A stretch of 64,000 bases of DNA from [Mycobacterium] nativiensis (lineage in GTDB: Bacteria; Actinomycetota; Actinomycetes; Mycobacteriales; Mycobacteriaceae), in assembly GCF_020172685.1 (NCBI RefSeq), contig NZ_CP083986.1:751437-815436 (forward strand), written 5' to 3'. This document shows positions 1,388-29,026 of this stretch, in pieces. The stretch's first letter is position 1, and each line of letters opens with the position of its first letter. The translations under genes were made by a program, and so were the position numbers. The notes beneath the pieces were generated by a model. It was not told the DNA's origin, did no database searches, and saw only the letters and a list, made by a program, of their open reading frames with translations.

Positions 1388-1389
1388 GG

Positions 1390-2538: not shown

Positions 2539-2867
2539 TTTTCAGCACCGCATCCTATGGTTTGTCCGAGCCTGTGGTCGAGCGTCGGATGTTCGTGGCA
2601 ATCTAGACGTTGTCGGCATCAGAGCAAGTCTTGCGCATCCCACCGACAGGGATGGTTCTTGGGGCTGTGGCAGACAGGTCTCGGTGTCGAGAGGTGTGGT
2701 CCTGCGGCAGCGTGACCGAGCGGTTGATAAGGCGGTGAGTTGCGGATGGAGGATCTGATCGTGAGCCCGGATATCAGCGACTGCCAGCTCAATTCTCGTG
2801 AAGGCGATGACACCGTTCCGCGGTGGGGCCTGCATCGAATAGCAGGGCACGCCGTTAAGGTCCTGAG
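2539..2867. promoter_or_regulatory. Divergent intergenic region between sigma factor and DISARM-like operon
   Basis: These 329 bases separate the start of the sigma factor gene (minus strand) from the start of the five-gene plus-strand operon, so promoters for both should lie here. I could not identify a clear -35/-10 pair or operator by eye. The small frames inside show no family features. Confidence 0.45.
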
Positions 2868-4502
2868 GTGCGAACGGTGAAGATGATTCCGTCGGCGCTC
2901 AGCGGTGGCACGGAGACCTCGTCGGAACGGCGTGTCTTCGAGGCTCTAGCGTCCAGTCGTCTCCGCGGGGTGGCACTTCACTCCCTGAACCTTCCCACGC
3001 ACCAATACAAGCTCACTTCTGAACTCGACTTCGTATTAATACTGGACGACATCGTGCTTGTGGTGGAGGTGAAGGGGGCTCAAGTCTCCTGCAGCGGTGG
3101 CGTGTGGACGTACAGCGACCGCAGCGGGCATTTCCGGCAAGATCGCGAGGGCCCGTTTAAGCAGGTCATTAGTGGCATGTATGCGTTGCGTGATCGGCTG
3201 GGGCAACGTTTGGGTGCAGCGGCGAAAGACATCGCGTACGGATTCTTGGTGGTGACGCCCGACGTGGACCTTGCGATCAGCAGCTTTGAGTGGGATGCGG
3301 AGACGTACTGCGGCAGAGGTCAGTTCAATCGAGACTTCATCGGGTCAATCCGGCGGATACTAGCGTACTGGCGTGGACGCCAAATCGGGAAGCTACCTAT
3401 TGACGATGCCCTTCTCGGTGCCCTGCTGAAAGACTTGCGTCCGGATTTCGACCGTTCCCCCCTACTTGATGCTCGTGCGGACGCGTTGGACGTTGCGTTC
3501 ATACACCTCACCGATGAACAGTTCTCGCGGCTAGACCTCGTGAGCGAGGCGCCCCGAGTCATCTGCAGCGGCGGGGCCGGCACCGGCAAGACGCTCGTGG
3601 CGGCGGAGATGGCCCGCCGGCAGGCGCTTGCAGGGCACTCGGTCCTGTTCACCTGTCGGAGCCGGATACTCGCTGCCTTTATCAGACGTCTGCTGGCGGC
3701 AACGAACGTCACGGTATGCGCGGTCAACGAGATTCCCGATGGCAGCTCATTCGACCTCGTCGTGGTCGACGAGGCGCAGGATCTGATGAACTTCGGCACC
3801 CTCGGACGGTTGGAAGCCGCCGTCAGAGGAGGTTGGGGCGACGGGCGTTGGGTGATGTTCATGGATCAGAACCGGCAAGCACACCTGTACGGCGACTTCG
3901 ACGCCGACGCGTTGCAATTCGTGCAGTCGTTCGGTCCCGTACCGGCGACCTTGCGTACGAACTGTCGGAACACACGAGAGATTGCCTTCCAAACCCGGGC
4001 CTTGACGGGAGCGGACACGGGGGTCGCCGCTGCCGGCGCAGGACCGAAGGTGGAATTCGCGACTGCTTCAGACGCGGCTTCTGAAACTGCGGCGCTGTCA
4101 ACGCATCTGCGTTCCCTGCGCGAGCAGGATGTGCCGGACGGTCATGTCACAATCGTCTCGATGCGAGGCGACTGGGCGACCAGTGCGGCGCAGGGGTTAT
4201 CGGAAGCGTGGAAACGGAGACTGCGCCTGCTTGATGAGGCGGTGGCCGCCGATTGGCCGGGATCAAACCTGACTTGGGCGTCGGCAGTTGAGATCAAGGG
4301 GCTGGAGAACCGGTTCGTGTGCGTGATCGACATCGATTCGTTGGAAACGGAGAAGGAGATTGACCTGCTCTACGTCGCATTGAGCCGACCTCGTGCCGGA
4401 CTCTGGCTCGCCACCAACCCGGCGATCCACGACCGGCTGATCGAGCTGTACCAGGCCAACGCTGTTAATGCACTTGAAGCACTGAAAAAGGCAGGTTCAT
4501 GA
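2868..4502 (+). CDS. NERD nuclease-domain / UvrD-like SF1 helicase
   Basis: This 544-residue fusion has an N-terminal NERD domain at about residues 25-150 (SELDFVLI then VVEVKGA, the acidic D...ExK nuclease pattern). An SF1 helicase core follows: Walker A GGAGTGKT at about residue 234, Walker B VVVDEAQD at about 298, the ASAVEIKGLEN motif near 470-480, and LLYVALSRPRAGL near 500. It probably unwinds DNA and may cut it. It is the first gene of a five-gene operon and its last four bases overlap the start of the DrmA-like gene (ATGA). It shares architecture with the protein at 39422-41065 but differs greatly in sequence. An ATG at 2883 is an alternative start. NERD-helicases are not part of the classical DISARM gene sets I know. 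Confidence 0.85.
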   Translation: MRTVKMIPSALSGGTETSSERRVFEALASSRLRGVALHSLNLPTHQYKLTSELDFVLILDDIVLVVEVKGAQVSCSGGVWTYSDRSGHFRQDREGPFKQVISGMYALRDRLGQRLGAAAKDIAYGFLVVTPDVDLAISSFEWDAETYCGRGQFNRDFIGSIRRILAYWRGRQIGKLPIDDALLGALLKDLRPDFDRSPLLDARADALDVAFIHLTDEQFSRLDLVSEAPRVICSGGAGTGKTLVAAEMARRQALAGHSVLFTCRSRILAAFIRRLLAATNVTVCAVNEIPDGSSFDLVVVDEAQDLMNFGTLGRLEAAVRGGWGDGRWVMFMDQNRQAHLYGDFDADALQFVQSFGPVPATLRTNCRNTREIAFQTRALTGADTGVAAAGAGPKVEFATASDAASETAALSTHLRSLREQDVPDGHVTIVSMRGDWATSAAQGLSEAWKRRLRLLDEAVAADWPGSNLTWASAVEIKGLENRFVCVIDIDSLETEKEIDLLYVALSRPRAGLWLATNPAIHDRLIELYQANAVNALEALKKAGS

Positions 4503-7500
4503 CCCCGCTGGCGGAAACGCGTGCAGATTTCGTTGCGTATGTCAGGCGTCAACTCGTTGGCCCGTTCGGCGGACCGGCTGAGATCATCTTCGATCCCCCG
4601 AACCGGCGTTATCTCATGGGCATCCTCTTTCCAAGACAGGTGTCGTTCGCCGGCTACGTCGAGGAGGAGGGCGAGGAACAGGAAGGCTCAGCGGCGACCG
4701 CGGGCGGCGATGAAAATCAGTTCAGCGATGACCCCGTGTCGGCAGCGAACGACTTCCTGCCGGCATCGCAAGGATTGTCGTTCTTCACAACGGCCGACGA
4801 GTTGGTGGTGACTGCTCGAGCGGCCGGGTACGAAACTCTCAGCGGCAATGCAGCCAAGGATGCGATCGCCGCTGCGGGGGCCCAGGACGGTGGACCAACC
4901 GAGGCGCAGGATAACGATCCGCGCAAGAAATCCCGTAATTCACGGCGCGTCTGGCGGCGGATTCCGTTGACGGAGGCCCGGGTCGCCGTCGGAGCCGACA
5001 AAACGAGCCCGCAGGAGATATGGGGTGGCCGGGCTGAGGTGCATGTTCGGTGGCGCAAGTACCCGCAGGGCAATCTCGTAACCGTCACGCTCGTCAACGG
5101 GCGGACAAGCGACGATGAGCACCCGGAACGAGCATGGGACGACATGCTGCTGCAAGTCGAGTTCGGTGTGGCGGTTGCCGGGGACGGCGAGATCCTGGAG
5201 TATCCGACGGTTGCGATGGCCTCACACGACCCGGAGGAGCAAGAGCTTCGTCTTGTTCACCGCAAGGCACGTGTATTCGCGATCGGGCACGGATGCTCGC
5301 CTGATTGGGACGAATCCGGCGGTGCCGTTCGCGAGGTCAACTGCGAAGTGATGCCCTCCCGCGTCGTACCCCGCGTCAGTGCCGACGGCGACGCCATGCA
5401 AGCCCTTGACATCGCGTGGTTGGCCGACGATTCCGTGCCAGACGAAGACCTCGTCCGTGAACTGGACGCTTTCGTAGACCCGTACGAAAACTGGATCAGA
5501 GACGTTGTCGCCGAGGCTGCCTCACTCGGTGAGCGGTATGAGTCTGCGGCCGGTGCGGTGATCGAGCGACTGCAGCGAGCCGGTGCCCGGATGCGCGACG
5601 GTGTTCGAGTGTTTGCGAATCATCCCGACCGCGCGCAACTCATCGAAGCCTTCCACCTCGCCAACCGGGCGATGCTCATTCAGATGCGGCACGGCAAGAA
5701 AGACTTGGCTGGTGCGCGACACCCGCGCACCGCGGCGCCCGACCTTCCTGCTGAGTATCCGGGCGGCGCCGCCTGGCGCCCGTTCCAGTTGGGCTTCTTT
5801 CTGACGACGTTGCGTGGCGTCGTGGATCCCGAACATGAGGAGCGAGATGTCGTCGATCTCATCTGGTTTCCTACCGGCGGCGGTAAAACGGAGGCGTACC
5901 TGCTTCTCGCAGCGTTTGAGATATTCCGGCGCAGGCTCCTGCACGGCGATGCGGGAGCCGGCACGGCCGTACTCAGTCGCTACACGCTGTCGTTGCTCAC
6001 GGCGCAGCAGTTCCAGCGCACCGCGTCGACGATCGTTGCGTGCGAGCACCTCCGCCGCAAAGCAGCCGGACGGCTTGGGGAAGAGCCGATTTCGGTCGGC
6101 TTATGGGTCGGCGAGGGCACGACACCTAACCGCTACCTGCAGGCGCGCGAGCGGTTCGATGAATTGCGTGACGCGGGGGAGACCGACGACCGGTTCCTTC
6201 TGGAGCGGTGTCCTTGGTGCGGGACCGAGATCGTCCCGCGTGAATACAGTGAGGACAATGCCGACTACGGCATTCTTTCGAACGACCGGGCCTTCACGTT
6301 CTTCTGCACCTCGGACAAATGTGAATTCCACAGTGGACTGCCGGTCCTCGTCATCGACGACGCACTGTACGACAACCCGCCCACCTTCCTGCTGGGTACC
6401 GTGGACAAGTTCGCGCAGCTGGCTTGGGTGCCGGAATCCGGCAAGCTGTTCGGCCGTCCCGATGGAAATTTGCCGCCGTCGCTCATCATTCAAGACGAAT
6501 TGCACCTGCTCACCGGGCCGCTCGGCACCACGGTCGGTCTGTACGAAGCGGCGATCAACCTGCTGTGTGAGGCGGGCGGCCGTCCTCCGAAGGTGGTCGC
6601 CTCGACGGCCACCATCCGCCGGGCGACCGCCCAGATCAACGGCTTGTTCGGCCGACCCGTGGACCTGTTCCCCCCGTCGGGCATCGACGCCGACAACTCT
6701 TACTTCGCTCGTGTCGACGAGGATTCACCCGGCCGACTGTATGTCGGGATGATGGCTCAGGGGCACACCTCCGACACCGCAGTCGTGCAGGCCGGTGCCG
6801 CCCTCCTGCAGGCGCCGATCGACCTTGAGCTGGCCGACGATGCGCAGGACGCCTACTGGACCGTTGTGACCTATCACAGTTCGCTGCGTGAACTCGGACG
6901 AACGGTCACAATCGCGAAAGACGACATCAATGCACGTCTTGCCGCCTTGATCACCGGGCGGTCCCGGCGCGAGTACGAGGTCGACGAACTGTCCTCAACC
7001 GTGCCGCGAGCCCAGCAGCCAAGGCTCCTCGAAAGGTTGAACCTGCCCTGTTCTGATCCGAACTCGGTGGACTTCCTCGCGACCACCAACATGCTGTCCG
7101 TCGGCGTCGACGTCCCGCGACTCGGACTCATGCTGATGAACGGGCAACCGAAAGCAACCGCTGAGTACATTCAGGCAACCAGCCGGGTAGGACGTTCCTC
7201 GGCGCCCGGCCTGGTGTTCGGCCTCTTCCGGTCGACCAAGCCCCGGGACCGTTCTCATTACGAGAACTTCCGTGCCTACCACTCGGCGTTGTATCGACAT
7301 GTCGAACCGACCAGCGTCACCCCGTATTCGCCACGATCTCGGGAGCGCGCTCTGCACGCCGCACTCGTCATCCTCGTACGCCACAGGTTGGGTCTTGCAG
7401 CAGACGGCCGCGCCGGCGATGTGACCAGCCGTGTCGCCGAGGTTCGTGTCCTCGCAGACGCCTTGATCGATGTGGTGGATCGTGTGGAGCCCCGAGAACG

Positions 7501-7756
7501 CGTCGGCGCTCGGAACTATCTCGATCGGTTCATCGACGACTGGCTTGACCGGGCCAAACGCGCTGACGATGGCGGCAAACTCCTGTACTACCGGCCGAAC
7601 GGCAAGGGGCAGATGAATCTCATCAAGCAGTTCAACACCAAAGGCGATGGGTGGTCGACCCTCGGGTCGATGCGCAACGTCGACTTCGAGTCATTGGTCG
7701 AGGTCGCTCACGGTGCCTCGCAGGCGAGGAAGAGCCCCGGGAAGAAGGGCAAGTGA
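4499..7756 (+). CDS. drmA-like: DrmA-like DISARM helicase
   Basis: This is a 1085-residue SF2-type helicase. Walker A is WFPTGGGKTEAY at about residues 457-468. A Cys4-type insert (CPWCGTE ... CTSDKC) lies at about 571-606. The DExH-like motif QDELHLLTGPLG is at about 664, and the C-terminal helicase motifs (TNMLSVGVDVPRLG, EYIQATSRVGRS) are at about 862-900. This layout, with a long N-terminal region before the ATP site, matches DrmA, which acts with DrmB to restrict phage DNA in DISARM. The gene starts within the end of the NERD-helicase gene and ends in a TGATG junction with the DrmB-like gene, so they are translationally coupled. The assignment rests on motifs and on the DUF1998 neighbour. 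Confidence 0.85.
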   Translation: MTPLAETRADFVAYVRRQLVGPFGGPAEIIFDPPNRRYLMGILFPRQVSFAGYVEEEGEEQEGSAATAGGDENQFSDDPVSAANDFLPASQGLSFFTTADELVVTARAAGYETLSGNAAKDAIAAAGAQDGGPTEAQDNDPRKKSRNSRRVWRRIPLTEARVAVGADKTSPQEIWGGRAEVHVRWRKYPQGNLVTVTLVNGRTSDDEHPERAWDDMLLQVEFGVAVAGDGEILEYPTVAMASHDPEEQELRLVHRKARVFAIGHGCSPDWDESGGAVREVNCEVMPSRVVPRVSADGDAMQALDIAWLADDSVPDEDLVRELDAFVDPYENWIRDVVAEAASLGERYESAAGAVIERLQRAGARMRDGVRVFANHPDRAQLIEAFHLANRAMLIQMRHGKKDLAGARHPRTAAPDLPAEYPGGAAWRPFQLGFFLTTLRGVVDPEHEERDVVDLIWFPTGGGKTEAYLLLAAFEIFRRRLLHGDAGAGTAVLSRYTLSLLTAQQFQRTASTIVACEHLRRKAAGRLGEEPISVGLWVGEGTTPNRYLQARERFDELRDAGETDDRFLLERCPWCGTEIVPREYSEDNADYGILSNDRAFTFFCTSDKCEFHSGLPVLVIDDALYDNPPTFLLGTVDKFAQLAWVPESGKLFGRPDGNLPPSLIIQDELHLLTGPLGTTVGLYEAAINLLCEAGGRPPKVVASTATIRRATAQINGLFGRPVDLFPPSGIDADNSYFARVDEDSPGRLYVGMMAQGHTSDTAVVQAGAALLQAPIDLELADDAQDAYWTVVTYHSSLRELGRTVTIAKDDINARLAALITGRSRREYEVDELSSTVPRAQQPRLLERLNLPCSDPNSVDFLATTNMLSVGVDVPRLGLMLMNGQPKATAEYIQATSRVGRSSAPGLVFGLFRSTKPRDRSHYENFRAYHSALYRHVEPTSVTPYSPRSRERALHAALVILVRHRLGLAADGRAGDVTSRVAEVRVLADALIDVVDRVEPRERVGARNYLDRFIDDWLDRAKRADDGGKLLYYRPNGKGQMNLIKQFNTKGDGWSTLGSMRNVDFESLVEVAHGASQARKSPGKKGK

Positions 7757-9627
7757 TGCAACGCAAGATCAGACAATCACAGACCATCGTCCCGTTCGGG
7801 GTTGGAGCGATCTTCGACTTCAAGGGTGAGTCGTTGGTGGGCTGCGACATCTTCGGTTGGGGTGCACGCGGTGAAACCGTCCAGAGTGAGCGACTGGCTG
7901 CCGCGCTGGGGGTCACCCATTTCCGTGCCGCGCCAGCGGTGGACAGCAATGCGTGGGCTCCGCCGAAAGCGGGGGTTCCGTACGCGCGCTTCCCGTCATG
8001 GCTCTTCTGCCAGAAGTGTCGTCGCATGACGCGTTGGAGGCGGTCCCTGGAACAGGAGGGGAAGGCACCGTCCTGCGGGAGCTGTTCCGGGCGAAAGCTT
8101 CTCGTTCCGATGCGTTGGATTCAGATCTGTCCTAAGGGGCACATGGACGACATCGACTGGAAGCGCTGGGCGCACTCGCGTAACCCGAGTCCTGACGCCC
8201 AGCAGTGCGAGAAGGACAATCTGTTCTTCGAGACACTGCCGGGAGGGTCTGGTGGTCTCGACACCCTTGAAATCCACTGCCGAAGCTGTGGCAGCCGACG
8301 AAGTCTCATGGGAATCACGGCCAAGGGATCCCTCAAGTCGATCCGCGTTTCATGCAGTGGACGCCAACCCTGGCAGCGGTTCGAAGACCGAGCCGACTGC
8401 CCCGAGATTCCCCTTGCGGTGCAGCGCGGCGCGAGCAACGTCTACTTCCCCTTGGTGCACTCGTCGATCGAGATACCGAATCCGTCGCGTTCGGATGCCC
8501 ATAGCGAAACCGCGATGGCCATCAAGGGCGACGACTGGTTCCGTGCCATCATGACCGCAAACGAGGACTCCCCGATGTTCGCGATGACGGTTCAGACTCT
8601 GGCGCAGGCTCACGACGTAACAGAAGCTTTCGTCAAAGCGCTTGTACGCGATGAGAAGCAGCGCGACGCGGGCAAAGCGACCACCGTTGAGGCGACGCCA
8701 GGGGATCTTCTCAGCGAGGAATGGGCGGCGTTTCTCACTCCATCCGAGAACGCGGAAGACCCGGACTTCTGCACGCGACATGTTGCGCTAACCGCCGCCA
8801 ACCAGGCTGCCGACGATGTCGCGTCGTTGCTCGCCGACCGCATCGACAAGGTGGTCCTGGCGGACAGACTACGTGAGGTACGGGCGCTGGAGGGTTTCCA
8901 TCGGGTCACCCCTGGCGGTCGAGACACGCTCGTGCGGGCTGGGTTGCACCACCCGGTGAACTGGCTGCCCGCCATCGATGTGCGAGGTGAAGGCATCTTC
9001 ATCTCACTAAACGAGAGCCGGTTGACCGTCTGGGAGGAGCAGGAGAGCGTCCGTGCTCGCGTCGCCGAACTGGAGAGACGCCTTGATGCCTCGTTCATGG
9101 CTCAGCGTCTCCGAGAGCGGACCGGTCCGATACTCAGCCCGCGTTACGTCCTCATACACACATTGGCGCACCTGCTCATTCGCCGATTGGCGTTCGAATC
9201 CGGATACGCAGCCACAAGCCTGCGCGAGCGCATCTATGCACGCAGCGGCCCTGAGTCGGACGGCGCGTCGAAACAGGCGGGGCTTCTGATCTACACGGCA
9301 TCCGGTGATTCGGAAGGCACATTGGGTGGTCTCGTCCGTCAGGGTGAGCCACCCGCCTTGCAGACCACTGTTCTCGAAGCACTTCAGGATGCCATGTGGT
9401 GCTCCTCCGATCCGTTGTGCAGTGAGAATCTGGCGTCGACTTTCGCAAGTCTCAACTTCGCTGCCTGCCATGCCTGCGCACTTGTCGCGGAAACCAGTTG
9501 CGAGAGTGGGAACTACCTGTTGGACCGCGTGATGTTGATCGGCAACGACAAGGTTCAGGGGTTCTTCGCACCGGTACTCGAGGCCGCAATAGCGCAGGCC
9601 GGCGAGGGAGTGAAGGGTATCCGGTGA
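7756..9627 (+). CDS. drmB-like: DrmB-like DUF1998 protein
   Basis: The 623-residue protein begins with RKIRQSQTIVPFGVGAIFDF, the typical opening of DrmB/DUF1998 proteins. It has zinc-ribbon pairs FCQKC and CGSC (about residues 85-110), HCRSC (about 174), and a C-terminal DUF1998 region with YVLIHTLAHLLIRRLAFESGY (about 464-484) and closing cysteines CHACALVAETSCE (about 570-583). In DISARM, DrmB partners DrmA. The ATG at 7756 was chosen because it forms a TGATG junction with drmA; the longer in-frame extension into drmA from 7651 has no family features. The end overlaps the next gene by four bases (GTGA). Confidence 0.87.
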   Translation: MQRKIRQSQTIVPFGVGAIFDFKGESLVGCDIFGWGARGETVQSERLAAALGVTHFRAAPAVDSNAWAPPKAGVPYARFPSWLFCQKCRRMTRWRRSLEQEGKAPSCGSCSGRKLLVPMRWIQICPKGHMDDIDWKRWAHSRNPSPDAQQCEKDNLFFETLPGGSGGLDTLEIHCRSCGSRRSLMGITAKGSLKSIRVSCSGRQPWQRFEDRADCPEIPLAVQRGASNVYFPLVHSSIEIPNPSRSDAHSETAMAIKGDDWFRAIMTANEDSPMFAMTVQTLAQAHDVTEAFVKALVRDEKQRDAGKATTVEATPGDLLSEEWAAFLTPSENAEDPDFCTRHVALTAANQAADDVASLLADRIDKVVLADRLREVRALEGFHRVTPGGRDTLVRAGLHHPVNWLPAIDVRGEGIFISLNESRLTVWEEQESVRARVAELERRLDASFMAQRLRERTGPILSPRYVLIHTLAHLLIRRLAFESGYAATSLRERIYARSGPESDGASKQAGLLIYTASGDSEGTLGGLVRQGEPPALQTTVLEALQDAMWCSSDPLCSENLASTFASLNFAACHACALVAETSCESGNYLLDRVMLIGNDKVQGFFAPVLEAAIAQAGEGVKGIR

Positions 9628-10724
9628 AGCTTCCGGCATTCGAGGACCTGTCCAAGGAACAGGACCTGATCTACAACCTCGACCTCGACGGCAACTATCT
9701 CGTCAGCGGACCTCCGGGGACCGGCAAGTCGGTCATGGCGCTCTACCGGGCGCAAGCGTTGACGTTCGATGACCGTGAGCCGGCGGTGCTGATGTACTCG
9801 AACGTACTCAAGCAGTACACCGAGCAGGCCGCCAACGAAGTCGATGTCGCCGGCCTCGTCACGACGTTCCACAGTTGGTTCTGGCATTTCTGGAAGACGC
9901 ACTACCGCACGGCCCCCCCGAAGCTGCCGGGCAGCCGGTGGGACCATGATTGGGCTCAGATACTGCAGCAGTTCGTGGCCAAACCTCCAGAACTCGGAAA
10001 GCTGGCCGACCTGATCGTCGATGAGGGACAAGACCTCTCACTTCGGTTCTTTCAGATCGCGCGGATGATGGCCAAGAACATCACCGTGTTTGCCGATGAG
10101 AATCAACAGCTACACGACCACAACACGACTCTCGACGAGATCGAGAAGGGGATCGGCGCGACGGAACACCTGACGCTTCGCCGGAACTACCGGAACACGG
10201 CCGAGATCGCGGCCGTCGCGGCGCGCTACTACGTAGGTGCGCCGACGGGCGTTCCTGACCCACCCGACCGTCATGGCGACAAGCCGACGTTGCGCAACTA
10301 CGGCAACGTAGGAGAGTTCGTTGACTTCGTGGCCCGGTACGTCAAGGGACGGACGAACCTCACCATCGGCATCGCGTGCCCCAATCAGAAACGCCAGCGC
10401 CAGCTGTTTCGGGAGCTGGAGTCACGTAAGCTTCCGGTCCCGGTTCAGATGTACGTATCGACGAACCCGGCTCACAAGCAGCTCACGTTTGAATTGCCCG
10501 CAGTCACTCTTGTGCACTACAAGTCTTTGAAGGGGCTCGAGTTCGACACGCTGTTCGTACCGGAGCTGCAGGAGGTGACGATGGACCCGACGTCGGCGGT
10601 GGCGCAGATGATGTTCTACGTGGTGATGTCGCGCGCGCGTGACGAGCTGCACTTGTCGTGGAGCGGGTCCTCCGAGATGCCTGCCATCCTTGCAGGACTG
10701 AAAGGCTTGGTGCAGAAGAAGTGA
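9624..10724 (+). CDS. Compact SF1 (UvrD/REP-like) helicase
   Basis: This 366-residue P-loop helicase lacks an N-terminal accessory domain. Walker A GPPGTGKS lies at about residue 29, Walker B LIVDEGQDL at about 131, LRRNYRNT at about 185, VHYKSLKGLEFD at about 297, and the final motif VVMSRARDELHL at about 333. The set is close to the helicase half of the NERD-helicase two genes upstream, so the two may act together or be duplicates. The GTG at 9624 was chosen because it gives a four-base GTGA overlap with the DrmB-like gene. A longer frame from 9498 overlaps drmB coding and is unlikely. The stop overlaps the next start in the same way. Confidence 0.82.
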   Translation: MKLPAFEDLSKEQDLIYNLDLDGNYLVSGPPGTGKSVMALYRAQALTFDDREPAVLMYSNVLKQYTEQAANEVDVAGLVTTFHSWFWHFWKTHYRTAPPKLPGSRWDHDWAQILQQFVAKPPELGKLADLIVDEGQDLSLRFFQIARMMAKNITVFADENQQLHDHNTTLDEIEKGIGATEHLTLRRNYRNTAEIAAVAARYYVGAPTGVPDPPDRHGDKPTLRNYGNVGEFVDFVARYVKGRTNLTIGIACPNQKRQRQLFRELESRKLPVPVQMYVSTNPAHKQLTFELPAVTLVHYKSLKGLEFDTLFVPELQEVTMDPTSAVAQMMFYVVMSRARDELHLSWSGSSEMPAILAGLKGLVQKK

Positions 10725-12556
10725 CTGAAGACGGCCAGATGGACTTCGCGAGTGTCGCGGGAGGCGAACCCAGCCGCAGCGATGAAGTACCCGACGACCG
10801 TCCGGTGGAATCGGGCGCCGGAGCGGTCGAGGGGCCGACGGGTGCGCCCGAGCAGGAACAGTCCGATCCGCAGTCCGCACAGGCGGCGTCCGTCGTCTCC
10901 GATCAAGCGGAGCCGGTTGCGCACGAAGGCGTTGAGCCGAAGGCCGGCGTGCCCGTCGATGAGGCGGGACAGCAGCAAGAGTCTCGAAGGGCGGAGTTGC
11001 CGGGAAATACCGGGGCTGACGCAGCGGTCTCTGAACGGAGACAGGCGGTTTCGGCCCAGCAGGCGGGACTGGCTGAACGCCGGACACCGCGGCTGTTCTT
11101 CCTCACCAACCAGATGAACCTCAACGGTGTACTCGGCGCTCGACTGCTCGCACCACGCGAGTCTTTCCACAAGTACTACGTGGACCTCCTCGAAGTGTGC
11201 CCGGGATGGGTGCCAGTTCTCACGGGGGCGCCACCTCCGTCGTTGATCGAACGGGTAATCGCAGAACGTGGGGCCGGGGCTCCTGTCCTTGTCGAACTCT
11301 CCGAGTCGGCACTGAACGGCCTGCAACCGGACACACCTGTCGTGTATATTCGCGCAGTCGCATTCTCTGCGGTCACAGCGATCCATTTCCCGGACAAGAA
11401 GGCTCTTCGCGGGCACCTCGCGCGCGGGTACAAGAACGTCCACCCACACGAGGACCTTCTCGAAGTCAGCCCGGATCTGTTCAACTCCACAGACTGCATC
11501 GAGACGACGATCTCGGCGCCGTCTGACACCCCGGATATCGATTGGTTGCACCTCGACCGAGTTCGGGGCGCAATCAGTGCAGTGATCGCCGCAGCGAACA
11601 GCGGCGAGGCAACCGCCGTCGCAGCAGGGGTGCTGGGGGCGGCACAACTGCCCGAAGGCACATTCGTACCTCCCTGGCTTCGGTGGGACGAGATGGGAAG
11701 CGCCACGGACGTTTCCCCTTCAGCGGATGCGTTCGCACGGGCCGGTCAACTCATCTTCCAGACATCGTTTCGGGTGCTCGCACGATGCGACCAGAAAGAT
11801 TCGTGGAGGCCCGCTGAAGTACTTGAGAACATCGAGGGCCAGATCGGCGCATCGAACCCCGGTGGAGACGCGGGCTTGATCATCGAGAAGGGCCTTCACC
11901 GAGTCCGAGAACTCATCAATGTAGAGCGGGAGTTCACGCCGTTCCAGAATCCGGGTAGCCCTTACGTCGCCGCGAAATCGTTGCTCATGGTCTTGCTACG
12001 GCCGGACCTCGGGCAACTCCTGGATTGGCCCGCCGAAGAGACCGGGGCCGACGAGGCCACCCGGGTTGCAGCGGCGGCATTGGCAGGCTGTTTGCGAGGG
12101 TTGGCCCGGGAGTCGGTCGCGTTGCGGAGCGTCGTATTGGACGATCTGACGGCCGCGTGGGCAGTTCGGACGATCAACGGCCACGACGGTCCTCTAGGAA
12201 CACCAAGCTTTGTTGCCGCGGATGACAAGACAACGTTGTCGCTGGACGGCCACGAACTCCGCCGGTCCACTCCTCTCGCCCCTGATCCCATTCCGCTTTA
12301 CGAGGCAATAGCACCCACTGCCCGAGAGGCAGTGAGGATCACGGTATCGCGCCACTTGGGGTGGCCGGTTGTCGTGCGGGTGCGTATACCTGAAAGTTCC
12401 GAAGTGCAGCAAGAGAATTCACTGATCACCATCACAACCAGTCAGCGCATCGACCTTGAACCGTCGGTGGAGGAAGAGGCGTTCCTCGAGCGGCTTCGTG
12501 CGACGACCGGCCGGGATCGGCGAGAGGTGAACGCCATGCTGAGACGCGCGGGGTAG
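10721..12556 (+). CDS. Unknown fifth protein of DISARM-like operon, disordered N-terminus
   Basis: This protein of about 611 residues belongs to no family I can name. The first 105 residues or so are rich in Glu, Ala, Gly, Pro and Gln and look disordered. A folded region begins at RLFFLTNQMNLNGVLGARLL and runs to the end. That opening faintly recalls the NAD-binding start of DarT-type ADP-ribosyltransferases, but I cannot confirm catalytic residues. Repeated WP, LRPDLGQLLDWP and helical segments suggest a scaffold or specificity role. The GTG start overlaps the preceding stop (GTGA), so it is coupled to the helicases and is the last gene of the operon. Confidence 0.75.
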   Translation: MTEDGQMDFASVAGGEPSRSDEVPDDRPVESGAGAVEGPTGAPEQEQSDPQSAQAASVVSDQAEPVAHEGVEPKAGVPVDEAGQQQESRRAELPGNTGADAAVSERRQAVSAQQAGLAERRTPRLFFLTNQMNLNGVLGARLLAPRESFHKYYVDLLEVCPGWVPVLTGAPPPSLIERVIAERGAGAPVLVELSESALNGLQPDTPVVYIRAVAFSAVTAIHFPDKKALRGHLARGYKNVHPHEDLLEVSPDLFNSTDCIETTISAPSDTPDIDWLHLDRVRGAISAVIAAANSGEATAVAAGVLGAAQLPEGTFVPPWLRWDEMGSATDVSPSADAFARAGQLIFQTSFRVLARCDQKDSWRPAEVLENIEGQIGASNPGGDAGLIIEKGLHRVRELINVEREFTPFQNPGSPYVAAKSLLMVLLRPDLGQLLDWPAEETGADEATRVAAAALAGCLRGLARESVALRSVVLDDLTAAWAVRTINGHDGPLGTPSFVAADDKTTLSLDGHELRRSTPLAPDPIPLYEAIAPTAREAVRITVSRHLGWPVVVRVRIPESSEVQQENSLITITTSQRIDLEPSVEEEAFLERLRATTGRDRREVNAMLRRAG

Positions 12557-12819
12557 CGGTCGCCTGTGCGCAACTCCCGGGTTGGCCGCCCTCAACCAAG
12601 ATTCTCGTACCGTTCGGAACGGTCGGGAAGTCCATCTATTCGCTCCCCCAACTCGCAGGGTCGCGGCTCGAAGCGAGTACGGACCACATGGATCAACCGA
12701 TCGGGGTCAGGTCAGAAGCAGTCAAAGACTGCGCAATAGGCTTTGCCGTCGCGCGCGGCTGTGCCCGTGGTCAACGTCAGACGTGATGTGCAGGTCCGAA
12801 TTTCGGGTGGTCAACCCGA
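12557..12819. other. Convergent gap between the two defence operons
   Basis: The plus-strand DISARM-like operon and the minus-strand Z1/MORC operon converge on these 263 bases. I see no gene, and no strong GC hairpin followed by a T-run. Confidence 0.5.
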
Positions 12820-13545
12820 TCAAACAACTGACCGCTGTATCTGCGTAGCTGATTCCTTAACCAGTCCCACACACATCTCGCGGACTTGCCCGTCATCCAG
12901 CGCCAGAGGATCGACGAAGACGAGGATCCGGCGCAGACGCTTGGTGGCGTCTCGGATAAGTCGTCGACGGGGTACGTCCGCGTTCGCCTCTAGGACTGCT
13001 AGCGCGAAGGTCGAAATCAAGCGGGGGTCACCGCCTATGATACGACGCTCCTGAAGTTGATTGAGTTCACTCTCTTGCAGCCGGCCGAGCAACTCCTCGT
13101 GATCCTGAAATACAACCGCCTGCCACCACAGGCGCGACCACGTATGGCGGGTCAGGTCGCTCGCGATCCACCGCTCTCGGTTGTCGAAACCGAATCGCCA
13201 GTAGGTGAGATGTGGCAGGGCGACCAGCGAGACGAACGACCATAGTCGGGTACTGCCCGCGTCCGCCCAACTGATGTCCATTTCATCCCGTAGCGCCGAG
13301 GCCGCGGCACGGTCAAACTGAATCCGGGCCTGCCCGGATGGCTGGTCGGGATAGCCGTAGTCGGCCGCCGTCACGCCAATCGCATCGATCAGACGCTGCA
13401 CGCAGGCGTCTGTCGCACGGTCCCCAACCGGCGAATAGATCTGATCAGGGTGGCGGCTTCGGGGCTTCGGTTCGTCGGGCGAACCAATGAGTTGCCGATA
13501 CTCGACCTCGGCGACGCCAGCTGGGATCTGCGGCCAGTTCTTCAT
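12820..13545 (-). CDS. DUF6339-like hypothetical protein of Z1/MORC operon
   Basis: This 241-residue protein is the last gene of the minus-strand operon. It has no catalytic motif I recognise. Visible features are a Trp/Arg-rich centre (LWSFVSLVALPHLTYWRF, then HTWSRLWWQAVVF) and a C-terminal helical part (LEANADVPRRRLIRDATKRLRRILVFVD). From memory it resembles DUF6339, a family seen beside Z1 and PD-(D/E)XK genes; that label is tentative. Its start overlaps the stop of the preceding gene by four bases, so it belongs to the same transcript. A structural or DNA-contact role is only inference. Confidence 0.7.
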   Translation of the reverse strand: MKNWPQIPAGVAEVEYRQLIGSPDEPKPRSRHPDQIYSPVGDRATDACVQRLIDAIGVTAADYGYPDQPSGQARIQFDRAAASALRDEMDISWADAGSTRLWSFVSLVALPHLTYWRFGFDNRERWIASDLTRHTWSRLWWQAVVFQDHEELLGRLQESELNQLQERRIIGGDPRLISTFALAVLEANADVPRRRLIRDATKRLRRILVFVDPLALDDGQVREMCVGLVKESATQIQRSVV

Positions 13546-14432
13546 CGAAACAGCCTGCCCTGGCCCATTCTGCGAACGGCTGCAGCGACCCGGGTCCTGG
13601 AGTCTGCCAAATCGTGAACAGACGGAGGGACCGCATCAACCAGATTCGCCCGAAGCAGCGTGTTCTTCAAGACATCGCCGACACTGTCGGCAGGCCATTC
13701 GTTATCGAACAATTCGTCTCGGTTCGCGATCGCGAGATCGATCAATAACGCCGACACGCCGCCCTCCAGTTCATCCATCAGGCCTCGTTGAACTTCATCA
13801 GGCACACCGTCGTTCGAAATCGCCTCTCGCAGCGCGGTATCCCTGCAATTGATCTGTAGCAGCACTGAACCCATAAATGGGGATTCCAGCTGACCGTCGA
13901 CGTCTACGTGCCAGCTTGCGTCGGGCGCGTATGTCGTACGAGAGAAGTCGACCATCTGGAGCGGGAACATGGTCACCGGCGCTTCGAGGATCAACAGTTG
14001 CTTGTGTTCCGCCAGAATCGATCCCGGGATTCGCGCGGAACCAATCGGCATGTCCTCCCCGGCTTTCCGAGCGAGAACGACTCTCGAAATGAGATTCAGC
14101 GTCCCCGCGAGCCGTGCACCCACGAGTTCGATGTCGATGAGCCCCGTTCCAGACGCCGGCAGTACGATCGGCGGCACTCCTTCAACCATGTCCGTCGTCG
14201 AACTACGCCAACAGACGTTGATCCGGCAATCGTGCACCGCGCACCGCGTTTCCGACTCGAATGTCGCCTTATCGATAACGACCTCACGCTGAAGATGAAT
14301 GTCGGTGCCGGGCTCCCACCCTTCGATGGAAGCGGGTAGCGGTAAGCGGCCGTCACCGTCCACCAACATCCAGGGACCCCATGTCACCGAGTCCGCCGAC
14401 GGCACGAAGTAGGGTCTCACGTCATTGGGCAT
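13542..14432 (-). CDS. Unknown beta-rich protein of Z1/MORC operon
   Basis: About 296 residues, of a family I do not recognise. The pattern of alternating hydrophobic strands (GTGLIDIELVGARLAGTL, QLLILEAPVTMFPLQMV, PFMGSVLLQINCRD) suggests a beta-sandwich N-terminal two-thirds, followed by a helical C-terminal third. The start at 14432 (MPNDV) overlaps the ATPase gene by 11 bases; an ATG at 14444 is also possible. The end overlaps the next gene by four bases. Fourth place in an operon with Z1, nuclease and GHKL ATPase suggests a subunit of the same complex. Confidence 0.7.
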   Translation of the reverse strand: MPNDVRPYFVPSADSVTWGPWMLVDGDGRLPLPASIEGWEPGTDIHLQREVVIDKATFESETRCAVHDCRINVCWRSSTTDMVEGVPPIVLPASGTGLIDIELVGARLAGTLNLISRVVLARKAGEDMPIGSARIPGSILAEHKQLLILEAPVTMFPLQMVDFSRTTYAPDASWHVDVDGQLESPFMGSVLLQINCRDTALREAISNDGVPDEVQRGLMDELEGGVSALLIDLAIANRDELFDNEWPADSVGDVLKNTLLRANLVDAVPPSVHDLADSRTRVAAAVRRMGQGRLFR

Positions 14433-16314
14433 GACGTCCCCCATCGCTCGCGAGCTCACTCACCCGAAATCGGACGACGGCATCCTCGACGTAACTGGCA
14501 TACACCGTCCACTCGGTCCGGTCGCCCGGCCCGACCGTGATGATCGAACCCGGAATCGGATCCGCACCGCAGTCGGATTGCGACCCGACGATCTGCGGGA
14601 TGCTCGCACCTTCTGGGGGCTCATCCTCCGCCTTACCTCCCTCGACGACGACATCGACGAAGGCGCGCACCCTGCGTTCGACATCAGACGCAGGAATATC
14701 AACCGTCGCAACGAAATATGGAACCTCGTCGTGGACCTCCAGCCGAGGCGCACCGACTATTCGGGGCTTGCGGGCGGCATTGCGCTGACCCGAACCGCGT
14801 GTCGCATCTGAACCGCTTCCTGAGCGACGCCTGCCGGATCGGTTATCACCGTGCCCTGACCGGTTCGATGGGTCAGTTCGTCCTTCCTGCTGGACATCGG
14901 ATGTGGGAATGAGTATCCCGAGGCGGGCAGAAAGTTCGCCCATCCCGCGGGATGCCTCCGTCGGCGGAGCGGTCTTGGGTGCGATGACTTCTGCTACTTC
15001 GCGGTGGAGGAACCGCGTTAAGCCCTGAACGACACCCAGATTCGCACCCCTCAGCCCACGCGCAATCCAGGCGTCATGTGTAGGGGGCTCTGACAATGCG
15101 AAGGCGGCATCTGCATCCAACGATGCCTTGAACACCGCGCAGTACGCCAGCCTTGCATCGGGATGGACGGCTGTCGGAAAGTAGTCGACGACCAACTCCG
15201 GTGTCCGCATCCGAGCGACATGATGCAGAGATCCGGTCAACGGACGGGCCGCATCCACGATCGGCTGCACGTCAGGCCGCTTGGCTGGCAACAACTTCAA
15301 CGAGAACGACCCTGCATGCTTCGGCGCGACCGTCCGCGCGTAAGGAACGCCGAATCCGGAACGCACGTCCCCGAGTGCCTCGACGAAGCCCCGCAACTCA
15401 TCGATCTCCTCCGGCGAAGGCAGCTCTACCTCTTGCCCCTCAACTGTGACCCGGAATCTCATGTACCGATCGTCGGCGGCTTTGAACTTCGGCCAGAGAT
15501 GCCAGAGGATGGACGACCCGAGGTATTCTGCGGCCTGGTCCAGTGTCCGCGTCGAGCTGTCCTGGCCTCCAAGGACCGACCCCAGATCCGCGGCGATGAT
15601 CACTATGTCGGTACCGCTCTCCGCCTCGCCAAATCCCGGGAGCCCGAGCACGTGACCGACCGTCTCGGCATGCTGGTCCAATAGCGGATCGGCGACGGTG
15701 TCGCCGATCGCGCCCCACCAGTGCCGGCCCGTGTACCTTTGATCGCGGACGTAATAACTCTCCCCTAGCGCAGCACCCATCAATCGTCTGCTGGGCATCG
15801 CCCCCGAGGTTCGGGTATCCACGAGAATCGCGCCTGCTCGGCTCAGCCGATAGAAGATCCCCTTTCCGAATCCATATGTGCCACCACCGAATTCCTGATC
15901 GCGAGGCTCGCCGACATTGCGCATGAACTGAACGAAGTCGGCCTTCTCGTCTGCGTCTGGACGAGTTCCGGCGCGAATCGGTCCACCGAGGCCCACGGTG
16001 TTTCGATCGGAGACCACCAGCAGGACGCTGTCCTCACTGAGGACGGCATCCAGCGTGCTCTGAGAATCGGCAGCCGGCGGCGGTAAGAGCGTCTCACGCC
16101 ATCGGGCGGTCAAAGCACCCAGCCGGCGCAGGTTGATTCCGAAGTCGACGGGCCCGTCTTCGCGCCGCGCATCCCAGCTGTTCTGCGCGGCTTCGCGGAC
16201 CAGCACCGTGAGCGGATCCATCTCGGGCCTGCCGAGTTGTTTGACGATTCCCTCAGCAGCCACGGAACCCTCAGGCGCGAATCGTTGTGACCACCAACCG
16301 GTCTCAATCGTCAT
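14422..16314 (-). CDS. GHKL (HSP90/MutL/MORC-like) ATPase
   Basis: The 630-residue protein carries the Bergerat-fold motifs: N-box REAAQNSWDAR at about residues 40-50, G1-like VVSDRNTVGLGGP at about 100-112, and the glycine lid GGGTYGFGKGIFY at about 143-155. In the G1 box Asn replaces the usual Gly after Asp. The C-terminal half holds a basic low-complexity linker (about 450-500, Gly/Ser/Arg-rich) and then a beta-rich domain. Restriction-type loci combining such MutL-like ATPases with Z1 helicases, PD-(D/E)XK nucleases and C5 methyltransferases were described by Iyer, Abhiman and Aravind in work on the origin of MORC ATPases. A role as an ATP-driven DNA clamp is inferred from that family. 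It overlaps both neighbours by a few bases. Confidence 0.85.
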   Translation of the reverse strand: MTIETGWWSQRFAPEGSVAAEGIVKQLGRPEMDPLTVLVREAAQNSWDARREDGPVDFGINLRRLGALTARWRETLLPPPAADSQSTLDAVLSEDSVLLVVSDRNTVGLGGPIRAGTRPDADEKADFVQFMRNVGEPRDQEFGGGTYGFGKGIFYRLSRAGAILVDTRTSGAMPSRRLMGAALGESYYVRDQRYTGRHWWGAIGDTVADPLLDQHAETVGHVLGLPGFGEAESGTDIVIIAADLGSVLGGQDSSTRTLDQAAEYLGSSILWHLWPKFKAADDRYMRFRVTVEGQEVELPSPEEIDELRGFVEALGDVRSGFGVPYARTVAPKHAGSFSLKLLPAKRPDVQPIVDAARPLTGSLHHVARMRTPELVVDYFPTAVHPDARLAYCAVFKASLDADAAFALSEPPTHDAWIARGLRGANLGVVQGLTRFLHREVAEVIAPKTAPPTEASRGMGELSARLGILIPTSDVQQEGRTDPSNRSGHGDNRSGRRRSGSGSDATRGSGQRNAARKPRIVGAPRLEVHDEVPYFVATVDIPASDVERRVRAFVDVVVEGGKAEDEPPEGASIPQIVGSQSDCGADPIPGSIITVGPGDRTEWTVYASYVEDAVVRFRVSELASDGGRHAQ

Positions 16315-17294
16315 TCGCGACCCCGCGCTGCCACCGCCAGCGAGGTGCCATAAGCTAGCGGAACGACGAAGGCGATGTCGACCTCGTAGCGTAATGCTGA
16401 GACTCCGATTGGCGCCTGCCCACCGACTAACCGGTCGGGGACGAGGCGTGGCACCGCATCATCCACATGTACGACGAACACGGCACCTATCGAGAACCGA
16501 TCCTGATCGTCGGCGGCCGACTCCTGGTCCCACCCCACGGCGAGCAGACGGGACGCGAACGTCCCTTTCGAGTCGATGCGCGCCCGCAAGGCTGTCACCA
16601 GTTCGGCCAACGTCGCGCCATCTGGGTCGGGAAGTACCGTGACCAAGGCCAGATCCAATGTCCTGCCGCCGTGTTCAGCGAGCTGCTCCCACCCGTGCAC
16701 GACGAAAGTGTCACTGTCTTCCGCCAACGCCTTGACCTCGATACAACGTACGGGCGTCTCGAAGTCATGAGGCTCGCGCAATGGCCCTCTCCATCTCTCC
16801 ACCGGAAAACCGGGATCGGCGTCGATTAACGCAGACAGGACCGTGAGTTCAGCGAACAGTCCGCGCTTAGCCTCCGGTGAGAGTCCTCGAACCAGGCGGC
16901 TGCGAAAAAGCCTGCGCCACCGCGCGATTACGGCAGTCGCATCGGTCGCGGGCCGACTCGAATGCTCGATCACCTCCAGTACGTCGCTGATGACCTCGTT
17001 GAACTCGGGGTGAAGCGAGGCGTCCGAGCAGGACACATCGAGGTAGGTGGCGCTACCGCTACCGAACGCCAGCGGTCGTACAGTCGAAGTCAGAATGGCT
17101 GGGCGAGCGTCTATTGGGGGCGACTCTTCCACGCAGGGAACGAGAAAGTGCCTGACGCGGTCGTTATCTCGGGCTACCCGGCATGGGACCCCCGCGAACG
17201 CGATATCCAGCGGAAAGGATGCGAGTTCGCCGCCTCGAGGCAGCGACAGTACGGACCACGCCCGTTCGAGCAGTTCATCCGTCACGTCGGTCAC
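16311..17294 (-). CDS. PD-(D/E)XK motif nuclease of Z1/MORC operon
   Basis: This 327-residue protein has a restriction-endonuclease-like core near residues 140-240: the helix RGLFAEL with Glu149, HDFE with Asp177, then CIEVKAL with Glu186 and Lys188, which together form the D...ExK pattern. The flanks carry no extra domain I recognise. It is probably the DNA-cutting subunit; the other genes of this operon show no nuclease motif that I can see. Four-base overlaps link it to the Z1 gene upstream and the ATPase gene downstream. Confidence 0.85.
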   Translation of the reverse strand: MTDVTDELLERAWSVLSLPRGGELASFPLDIAFAGVPCRVARDNDRVRHFLVPCVEESPPIDARPAILTSTVRPLAFGSGSATYLDVSCSDASLHPEFNEVISDVLEVIEHSSRPATDATAVIARWRRLFRSRLVRGLSPEAKRGLFAELTVLSALIDADPGFPVERWRGPLREPHDFETPVRCIEVKALAEDSDTFVVHGWEQLAEHGGRTLDLALVTVLPDPDGATLAELVTALRARIDSKGTFASRLLAVGWDQESAADDQDRFSIGAVFVVHVDDAVPRLVPDRLVGGQAPIGVSALRYEVDIAFVVPLAYGTSLAVAARGRE

Positions 17295-19858
17295 GCCAGT
17301 CCCTCAGTGTCGACGGTGAGTGCCTCGTCGAGGTCGTCTGTCTCGACGTCGGCGAGATCGACGGCGACGTATGACGCTTGAACGCTCTTGGTCTTCACGT
17401 CGCCAGGGAACACGACGCCGAAACCGGCGACGGTGCGCACGGCCGACAGTGGCACGCGCGGTGGAGGGACATCTGAATACTCCTTATCCGGGCGGCTGGT
17501 CGAATCGATCGGGTACAGGACCAGGAGTCCGCGTTTGCGGTATACGGGGTCGTCGTTTCGAAGCTTCATTAGCGCAGCTTCGGTTTCGGACCGTGTGGTC
17601 GACCACCCCGACAGATCTAGTGCGCGGTCCTCTTTGCTCATCAACGTCTTGATGTCGGCCCGCCCGTAATTGCTCTCGTCTGTCAGTCGAGAGCGATTTA
17701 CCGATTTCACCTGCATTCCACCGAAGTCGACAGTCTCACCCTCGCCGGTGACGATCGCAACCGACCAGAAGTCGAGAGACGGCGGGTCTGCGGCGAGCTG
17801 CTCGTCGATATAACGAATCATCAGCTTCGGATCGAGGTCTGGAGAGTCAGTGTGTACTTGGTATCGACTCAAGAAGTCCTTGATGAAGCCAACAGGAACG
17901 TCGCGGTAAAGGTACTTCGCCGCCGCACCACCGGCACCCAACCGTTCCGGGTCACTGCGTGAATCGACTTGCTCGACCAAGTGCGCGGCTGCATCGAAAT
18001 TAGTCTTCAGCCACTCACGATCCTCCCGCAAGAAGTATCGGGTCTGCAGTCGCCTGCCCGCATACGAGATGTAGGCGGGCTGCGCGGCACCCATCTTGGC
18101 TGTGATGCGCAGAGATGGATGCGTTTTGATTCGGACCGCTACTTCGCTCGGTGTGAGGTTCTCGCGCTGGTACCTGTCGATGTCATCACGCATCTCGTGC
18201 TCGACGGTGGCGAGGTGACGGAACGCCGACTCCAGCGAGGGCGTCATCCAGATTCGCGGCAGATCCTCATACCCCGTTCGGTAGCCGAACCAGCGACCCA
18301 TCTGAAGCAAGGTGTCGTACGCTGTCGCCGCTCTAACGAAGAAGCTGACCACCAGACCTGCCAGCGTCAACCCGCGGGACAATGTATTGCCCCCGACGGC
18401 GATCGCGACCACGGGATCCCCCGAATAGTCCAGGCGATCCTCGCTGCGGTAATTGTCGAGCACGACGGTCGTGTCCTTCACCACGTCGGCGAGCAGTGGG
18501 AGGATCTCCTCGAACGAGAATTCAGTGAGCTTAAAGTCCGCCGCCGGGACCTTAGCGGACTCGCGGTCCCACAGGCCGCGCCAATTGGTGAGCGCATTGT
18601 TGTCGTTCTCCTCGAGCCCGCGTATCGCCTTGCTGCGGATGGCTTCCAGCGGTGTGCGATACGAGTCGTGAACCGCAGTCTTGACCGACGTGTGAATCAA
18701 CATCGTGCTGTGGCCGAGGTCTTTGCGTGCGCGGCGTACCGCGGTCGCAAGCCAGAACCAGTGAACGGCGTCCTTGAGTTCCGTGGTCATCTTGGGCATG
18801 AACTCGTCGGCGGGCTCCTTGCTTCCCGGCCGCAGGAGTGTTACATCCTTCTCTGGAACGTGGCGGACCATGTCGTATCCGTCGGCGGGGCCGTCGTCGT
18901 CATCACCGTCCTCTCCCTCGACGCCGTCACGGCCGAAGATCTTCTCCGGACCGAAGTAGCCGTGTGGGCGTGGAAGGTTCAAGATGAACGATTTCGGATA
19001 CAGGTCGGCGTCGGCCGGGTCGATGAAGACGTTCGCGAACGGGGTTGCGGTGTAGCCGATATAGGTAGACCTCGGCATCAGACTGAGGATGCGACGAATC
19101 AGCGGATTGATCGTCTTGGTAGCAACCGATGCCTGGTCTGCCTCGTCATCGATGATCAAGACCGGAGCCGACTGCAACGCCTTCTTACAGGCGGGTTTAT
19201 CAAGCCAGTCAATGATCTTCAGGAGAACCGCCTGATTCTTCTTCGCGACGGCGACCGCGACCTTGTTCGAACTGAGGACGGCAGCAGCGGTTTGAGTGGG
19301 GGTGAGGAAGTCTCGTTTGTCATCGGTCAGTTTGAAGAATTTGTCCGGATGCAGATCGCTCAGCGATTCATCGATTCGTTCTTGAGTCTGTCGCCGCAAC
19401 CCGTTGTGAATACCGGACAGCACGATGATCATTCGATACTCGACGTCGGCCATCTTGGCCATCACCGAAATGAAGTTGGTCGTCTTGCCGCTCTGTACAT
19501 AGCCGACGACCAGGCCCTTGGCGTCCCACCCGGTGCGACTGGGTCTCGGGGTATGACCCACCACCGTGCTCGACGCTGCGTCAACGTCGTCGATACGCGG
19601 CCGCGGCCAATCCTCGTTCTCGAAGTGTTGCTCCAGTGCGGGCCAGAAGACGTCGTAGGCACTGGGGCCGCTGTACCAGTCGTCGCGGCCGGCGGTGATT
19701 ATCGGTGGTCCGCCTTCCTCCACACGCGCGACATCTTGTTCGAACTGGACTCGGAAGACCGCGACCTTGGCGGCGTCGAGTGACGCGAAGCTATCGATCG
19801 CATGATCGAGTCCGTATTTGCGAGCGTGCTCGGCGAATACTCCGTACAGCGGGTCCAT
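17291..19858 (-). CDS. Z1-domain SF2 helicase-like ATPase
   Basis: About 855 residues with the Z1 signature: Walker A GYVQSGKTTNF at about residue 118, Walker B LIIDDEADQAS at about 232-242, then VGGNTLSRGLTLAGL (about 488-502) and LLQMGRWFGYRTGY (about 515-528), the motif VI-like arginine segment. Z1 proteins are diverged helicases found in restriction loci with GHKL ATPases. I chose the ATG at 19858 (MDPLYGVF) because the 29 upstream residues are basic, lack family character and run close to the divergent methyltransferase start. It is the first gene of the minus-strand operon. Confidence 0.9.
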   Translation of the reverse strand: MDPLYGVFAEHARKYGLDHAIDSFASLDAAKVAVFRVQFEQDVARVEEGGPPIITAGRDDWYSGPSAYDVFWPALEQHFENEDWPRPRIDDVDAASSTVVGHTPRPSRTGWDAKGLVVGYVQSGKTTNFISVMAKMADVEYRMIIVLSGIHNGLRRQTQERIDESLSDLHPDKFFKLTDDKRDFLTPTQTAAAVLSSNKVAVAVAKKNQAVLLKIIDWLDKPACKKALQSAPVLIIDDEADQASVATKTINPLIRRILSLMPRSTYIGYTATPFANVFIDPADADLYPKSFILNLPRPHGYFGPEKIFGRDGVEGEDGDDDDGPADGYDMVRHVPEKDVTLLRPGSKEPADEFMPKMTTELKDAVHWFWLATAVRRARKDLGHSTMLIHTSVKTAVHDSYRTPLEAIRSKAIRGLEENDNNALTNWRGLWDRESAKVPAADFKLTEFSFEEILPLLADVVKDTTVVLDNYRSEDRLDYSGDPVVAIAVGGNTLSRGLTLAGLVVSFFVRAATAYDTLLQMGRWFGYRTGYEDLPRIWMTPSLESAFRHLATVEHEMRDDIDRYQRENLTPSEVAVRIKTHPSLRITAKMGAAQPAYISYAGRRLQTRYFLREDREWLKTNFDAAAHLVEQVDSRSDPERLGAGGAAAKYLYRDVPVGFIKDFLSRYQVHTDSPDLDPKLMIRYIDEQLAADPPSLDFWSVAIVTGEGETVDFGGMQVKSVNRSRLTDESNYGRADIKTLMSKEDRALDLSGWSTTRSETEAALMKLRNDDPVYRKRGLLVLYPIDSTSRPDKEYSDVPPPRVPLSAVRTVAGFGVVFPGDVKTKSVQASYVAVDLADVETDDLDEALTVDTEGLA

Positions 19859-19980
19859 CTGGCGCCTCCCGTTAATTCCGCCGATTCTTGGGGAGACGGT
19901 AGCGTGCCGCACCGACACACGCAGCCGGTTCGATCGCGCCATCACCGTGGTTGACGGAGGGGCCGGCTAACATCGCAACC
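19859..19980. promoter_or_regulatory. Divergent promoter region: Z1 operon / cytosine methyltransferase
   Basis: The restriction operon and the methyltransferase are transcribed away from each other from these 122 bases. This shared control point is typical where methylation must precede cutting. No clear operator dyad was found by eye. Confidence 0.5.
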
Positions 19981-21108
19981 ATGCCACCGAAACAGGCTCC
20001 GGCAGGTCCGCAGCAGCGAATCATCGACTTGTTCGCCGGTCCTGGCGGGCTCGACGTCGGCGCGGCTTGGCTGGGCATCCCGGCCACCGGTATCGAGATG
20101 GACGACAATGCCTGTGCGACTCGCGAAGCGGCCGGGCTCGACACCGTGCAAGGCGATGTCCGCAACTACGGACCAGCCGACTTTCCGCAGGCCACGACAC
20201 TTACCGGCGGACCTCCATGTCAGACGTTCACCGTTGCGGGGGTCGGATCTGGCAGACATGCGCTCAACGAGATCACCCGCCGTGCGGCGGAGATGGGTGA
20301 CTGCGAGGACCCCGATCAATTCCTGGGCGGGTTTGCAGATGAACGCACGGGACTGGTCCTTGAACCGCTGCGGTGGGCGCTCGAGGCGCTGCGTGCTAAT
20401 CGCCCCTACGAGTCGATCGTGTTGGAACAGGTGCCAGCCGTGTTACCCGTCTGGGAGGCGTTCGGAACGGTGCTCAAGCGACACGGGTACGGTGTCGAGA
20501 TCGGAATCCTCCGATCCGAGGAATTCGGCGTCCCGCAGACACGTCGTCGCGCCATTCTCATCGCGCGGCTCGGCGACCCCACCGTGCAGCTCCCGATCGC
20601 CACTCATGAACCGTTCATAAAAGGTGACCGGCGCCGACCTGCGTTCGGTCGCCAACCCTGGATCTCGATGGGCCAGGCGCTGGTACGTGACAGCAGCTTC
20701 ACCGTCATTTCCAATTACGGCAGCGGCGGCGATCCCCGCAACAGAGGGCAGCGCCATTCTGATGAGCCGTCGGCGACCGTCACAGGAAAAGTCATGCGAA
20801 ATAGGCTCCGTCTCGCCGGTGGTGACTGGAGCCGACTGTCACACCATGAAGCCGGAATCCTGCAGACGTTTCCGCATGATTTTCCGTGGTCGGGAAGCGA
20901 TATCGGCCAGCAGATCGGGAATGCGATACCGCCTCGTCTCGCGGTACACGCCTTGGCGGAAGCGCTCGCGATGCACTTCGATCAGTCCGAACTCGACCGC
21001 GCAGTCAAAGCATCGTGGGCGACCGCCCGGCGGAACCCGATCCCCCTGCAGAATGGATCACGTATCAACCTGGAATCAGGGCGAATCCGGTTCCGAAGTC
21101 TGACGTAG
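19981..21108 (+). CDS. dcm-like: DNA (cytosine-5) methyltransferase
   Basis: The 375-residue enzyme carries the C5-methyltransferase motifs in order: I (DLFAGPGGLD, residues 16-25), IV (GGPPCQTF with catalytic Cys80), VI (EQV at 149-151, where ENV is usual), VIII (VPQTRRRAIL, about 180-190), a target-recognition region including DEPSATVTGKVMRNRL, and X (QQIGNAIPPRLA near the end). It should methylate cytosine in a specific site and protect host DNA from the adjacent restriction genes. I chose ATG 19981 (MPPKQ); a GTG at 19951 would add ten residues with no family support. It pairs logically with vsr at 956-1387. Confidence 0.95.
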   Translation: MPPKQAPAGPQQRIIDLFAGPGGLDVGAAWLGIPATGIEMDDNACATREAAGLDTVQGDVRNYGPADFPQATTLTGGPPCQTFTVAGVGSGRHALNEITRRAAEMGDCEDPDQFLGGFADERTGLVLEPLRWALEALRANRPYESIVLEQVPAVLPVWEAFGTVLKRHGYGVEIGILRSEEFGVPQTRRRAILIARLGDPTVQLPIATHEPFIKGDRRRPAFGRQPWISMGQALVRDSSFTVISNYGSGGDPRNRGQRHSDEPSATVTGKVMRNRLRLAGGDWSRLSHHEAGILQTFPHDFPWSGSDIGQQIGNAIPPRLAVHALAEALAMHFDQSELDRAVKASWATARRNPIPLQNGSRINLESGRIRFRSLT

Positions 21109-28949: not shown

Positions 28950-29026
28950 GTCGCGATCATCCCGCAGGGGTGCGACGTGTTCGCTTGCTTTCGCTGGTCG
29001 CGGCTGGTTGTAGGTGGCCTCCGCCC

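Follow-up and report, generated by a model that had tools for sequence, protein, structure and literature searches.

A 64,000-nucleotide stretch of the [Mycobacterium] nativiensis genome (NZ_CP083986.1, positions 751,437 to 815,436 of the forward strand; hereafter the window, in whose coordinates features are given) carries a DISARM-like operon (operon A, 2868..12556, plus strand) that converges on a GHKL/MzaC-like restriction operon (operon B, 12820..19858, minus strand). Each operon contains five genes, and a C5 methyltransferase gene is divergent from operon B. Since groups of genes resembling A and B lie side by side in related bacteria in varying combinations, these data suggest that operon A is a common machine that teams with different DNA-cutting partners.

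An earlier note on this DNA had tentatively read the two operons as a single system and had proposed a neighborhood search for their co-occurrence. The search supported this reading in part. The exact pair is rare, since the seven closest relatives of A lacked B in the fetched flanks and the nearest sampled relative of B lacked A, but pairing of the DrmA and DrmB genes (DrmAB) with GHKL ATPase modules recurs more broadly. The host's family was sampled at its top 20 DrmA loci, with more than 10 further strong matches lying outside the sample, and a GHKL/DUF6339 module was present at 10 of the 20. For a second type of GHKL protein, 9 of 13 modules adjoin DrmAB.

The recurrence might instead reflect the habit of defense genes to cluster, with A and B being two complete, independent systems that became neighbors by chance in a defense island. 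We regard this explanation as possible but somewhat doubtful. GHKL modules of either type adjoin DrmAB in 11/15 to 11/17 genomes, whereas strong HsdM matches do so in only 2/21 genomes; this comparison is asymmetric, in that for G617, G697, G580, G626, G688, G749, and G640 DrmA was sought in the flanks only and HsdM was not sought. The 11/15 figure counts these seven genomes, together with G278, G493, G171, and G615, as near and G182, G728, G742, and G689 as not near. G689, scored here as not near, was treated as paired on the trees described below: its module is at the start of contig C269, and its DrmA, on contig C31 (36644 bases), stops about 2.7 kb short of the contig end, a spacing that matches that of G493, which has the same genus code. 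Gene structure also argues against independence: two genomes encode the sigma factor and the GHKL protein in one frame, and a single overlapping operon unites DrmAB with MZA parts in G493.

Two trees were used to ask whether the pairing reflects one old event or several. On a tree of 43 DrmA loci (a quick search, with three long rows), the GHKL label must change 6 times, and well-supported branches force every one of these changes. On a tree of 31 GHKL loci, the DrmAB label also requires 6 changes, 5 of which are forced. The pairing of A with GHKL has therefore been gained or lost several times. The window is the sole GHKL-labeled row in its eight-row DrmA clade, and its pairing looks recent. 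The fractions on these trees are not frequencies, because some DrmA loci were found via GHKL.

Partners of other kinds were found next to related cassettes. Other C5 restriction genes accompany 5/7 of the closest A cassettes, and homologs of NaeI and NgoMIV adjoin DrmAB cassettes in L004 to L006, L009, and L259. The prototype NaeI and NgoMIV enzymes both cut GCCGGC, so the same methylated site may recur around the DrmAB cassette. A separate observation concerns a 1600-residue protein (L099:10900-15870) whose N-terminal half is TmtA-like and whose C-terminal half is a PbeA-like superfamily 2 (SF2) helicase, according to profiles run on L099. In the class sample it precedes DrmA in 7 of the 9 composites of the second type, and it does so at many family loci as well; relatives are present in G697, G580, G626, G688, G749, G640, and family loci.

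The gene content proposed in the earlier note (DrmA-like, DrmB-like, Z1, PD-(D/E)XK, GHKL, and C5 methyltransferase genes) was confirmed by profile matches and motifs. Profile searches matched DrmA, DrmB, and PF10593 directly; the GHKL protein was assigned by motif, and DUF6339 (PF19866) was reached via homologs. Operon A begins with a 544-residue protein (2868..4502, plus) that combines a NERD nuclease-like domain (32.9 bits; ELDFV...EVKG) with a superfamily 1 (SF1) helicase bearing Walker motifs and that matches DrmD weakly (14 bits). The second protein is a short form of DrmA, a YprA-family SF2 helicase of 1085 residues (4499..7756, plus), which scored 707 bits against PADLOC DrmA and 882 bits against NF038325, under the equivalog cut-off of 950. 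DrmB, a DUF1998/MZB protein (7753..9627, plus), scored 459 bits against NF038324, over the cut-off of 240, and 34.8 bits against MZB. It is followed by an SF1 (UvrD/HelD-like) helicase (9624..10724, plus; UvrD_C, 32 bits; HelD, 50 bits); the starts of both genes were placed by GTGA overlaps. The fifth protein (10721..12556, plus; about 611 to 632 residues) has no assigned family and consists of a variable N terminus and then a conserved region. It is kept in L004 to L009 at 39 to 53%. An AlphaFold model built from 7 sequences (mean predicted local distance difference test [pLDDT] score, 43) was too poor to use. This protein was considered as a hidden DrmC, and profile searches gave no significant match. 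In agreement with the earlier note, which had seen no DrmC-like gene, none of the ten window proteins scanned matched the DrmC phospholipase-D nuclease. BrxHII and PglX were likewise without a match among the scanned window proteins, and the window DrmA matches DISARM models.

Two further genes lie upstream. A sigma-70 family factor (1390..2538, minus; 382 residues; regions 2 to 4, with Pfam matches to regions 2 and 4) is the divergent head gene of operon A and was found in 14/15 rows of the window's DrmA clade. It is MzaA-like, scoring 147 bits against PADLOC MzaA in a match confined to the sigma part (positions 428 to 662 of the 683 in the profile), and it matches SigA/HrdB/SigB structures (best E value, 1e-52). 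By eye, no clear shared promoter block was present in the gap between the sigma factor and NERD-helicase genes. A Vsr-type very-short-patch repair endonuclease of 143 residues (956..1387, plus) aligns at 64.8% over 128 residues with the Vsr of L003, which matches PF03852, and matches the DNA mismatch endonuclease 1cw0 with an E value of 7.5e-13.

The presence of Vsr raises the possibility that operon A, with its YprA/MrfA-like helicase and SF1 helicase, mainly repairs or processes DNA cut or mismatched by the neighboring C5 restriction system, thereby protecting the host and not attacking phage. YprA-family helicases do include a repair branch (PMC12458937), and the fetched stretch holds a C5 methyltransferase in 17/20 family DrmA loci. 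However, DrmA and DrmB match defense families strongly, and DrmA matches the solved DISARM DrmA (7s9v) at 497 bits (E value, 1e-147) and the repair protein YprA at only 21.5 bits. A primary role in repair is therefore very unlikely.

Operon B is read from the minus strand, beginning with an MzaC-like SF2 helicase (17291..19858) that carries QSGKT, DDEAD, and DTLLQMGRWFG (residue 544) and scored 220 bits against PF10593, 300 bits against PADLOC MzaC, and 362 bits against the NCBIfam model (cut-off, 1500). The DUF4420/MzaD-like PD-(D/E)XK nuclease (16311..17294; 327 residues; HDF...EVK) scored 154 bits against PF14390 and 84 bits against MzaD (NCBIfam cut-off, 420). The GHKL ATPase, paraMORC/PDC-M33A-like (14422..16314; 630 residues), was assigned by the motifs EAAQNSWD and GFGK, with no Pfam match and no match to MzaB at an E value of ≤0.01; its PDC-M33A score is weak (18 bits), and homologs scored 69 and 77 bits. 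A plasmid search with this protein returned 3 records at 34% identity. The remaining members of the GHKL trio are a 305-residue protein (13542..14459) and a DUF6339-like, PDC-M33C-like protein of 241 residues (12820..13545), with homologs in 29/31 and 31/31 loci of the GHKL tree, respectively. Profile searches with the 305-residue protein gave no match, and its single-sequence structure model (pLDDT, 33) was worthless. Homologs of the 241-residue protein match PF19866 at 36 and 53 bits, and one matches PDC-M33C at 38 bits; the window's own protein does not match PDC-M33C. The cytosine-C5 DNA methyltransferase (19981..21108, plus; start placed at Met11) scored 95 bits against PF00145 and 297 bits against PADLOC MTase_II versus 65 bits against DrmMII. 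No AIPR/MzaE match was found among the window proteins scanned.

That the island is a decaying relic without present function is very unlikely. Each of its eleven genes (those of operons A and B plus the methyltransferase gene) is an open reading frame, and motifs were sought and are present in the products of eight of these genes as well as in the sigma factor, the other three proteins having no motif to check.

The G+C content per 2-kb step is 58 to 63% in window positions 1 to 20000 versus 65 to 71% from position 20001 on, and this shift across the island is consistent with horizontal acquisition. A tRNA search of the window found none, and a pattern scan of the gap between the convergent operons found neither promoter nor terminator. 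Immediately right of the island, a 1135-residue protein (22293-25700, minus) with PDDEXK_1, RNase_H_2, and AAA_11/AAA_12 matches is possibly a further defense or repair gene. Beyond it are a DSP/PTP-type phosphatase (PTP-SAK; 26656-27225, plus) and an ankyrin-repeat protein (28209-29093, minus). At the left edge, a 199-residue reading frame (22-621, plus) was without a match in Pfam and PDB searches; by eye, its VALLDADESGK stretch resembles TOPRIM.

The island shares features with several known systems. Like DISARM (Ofir 2018), it has DrmA and DrmB as separate genes, a cytosine methyltransferase nearby, and additional helicases; it differs in lacking a DrmC match among the scanned proteins, in its weak DrmD match and sub-cut-off DrmA, and in adding the NERD-helicase, SF1 helicase, sigma factor, and family-less protein. 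DrmC is described as dispensable and often missing, with other nucleases thought to be recruited to DISARM (PMC9142583, on the structure of DrmAB). MZA comprises mzaABCDE (Gao 2020, as cited in PMC9523054), whereas the scanned window proteins include no MzaB or MzaE (AIPR) match, the MzaC and MzaD matches are far under the NCBIfam equivalog cut-offs, and the sigma gene is located with DrmAB. Operon B and the methyltransferase are likely a described six-gene restriction type, with which they share the core and gene number and which is tied to DNA-repair endonucleases, as Vsr is found here; identity is not proven because the three extra genes of that type are not named in its description. The available part of its description prints "DUF4220" (probably DUF4420) and mentions no DrmAB partner. 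The third type of (para)MORC restriction-modification operon (Iyer 2008, PMC2292703) likewise has an RE-fold nuclease, a GHKL ATPase, a cytosine methylase, Vsr, and an SF2 helicase with DThhQXuRhFG, which the window's DTLLQMGRWFG resembles, but DrmAB is not described as a partner in the part of that source available. The PADLOC candidate system PDC-M33 may share the GHKL (A) and DUF6339-like (C) proteins, although the window's own matches are weak and absent, respectively. A YprA-family helicase cassette adjoins another restriction module both in McrBC-linked DISARM-like cassettes (Bell 2024, PMC11090510) and in ARMADA (PMC12458937), and a similar five-gene cassette adjoins McrBC in L258. However, the available text of the former names no GHKL/MORC partner, the latter contains neither "GHKL" nor "MORC," and ARMADA genes are absent from the scanned window proteins. 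The DrmAB/GHKL pairing is not described in the available parts of PMC13373217 and PMC12137116, which mention GHKL, and no mention of DUF6339 was found in the open-license PMC literature, a search that excludes subscription papers and supplements.

This pairing bears on two questions about DISARM, namely, which nuclease it uses and what its methyltransferase does. If DrmAB regularly pairs with separate C5 restriction modules, candidates for the recruited nucleases can be named, and restriction cuts would be predicted to feed DrmAB. The pairing would also tie DISARM to MZA and (para)MORC through the shared sigma factor and the fusions. If this is true, defense-finding programs would draw the borders of these systems differently.
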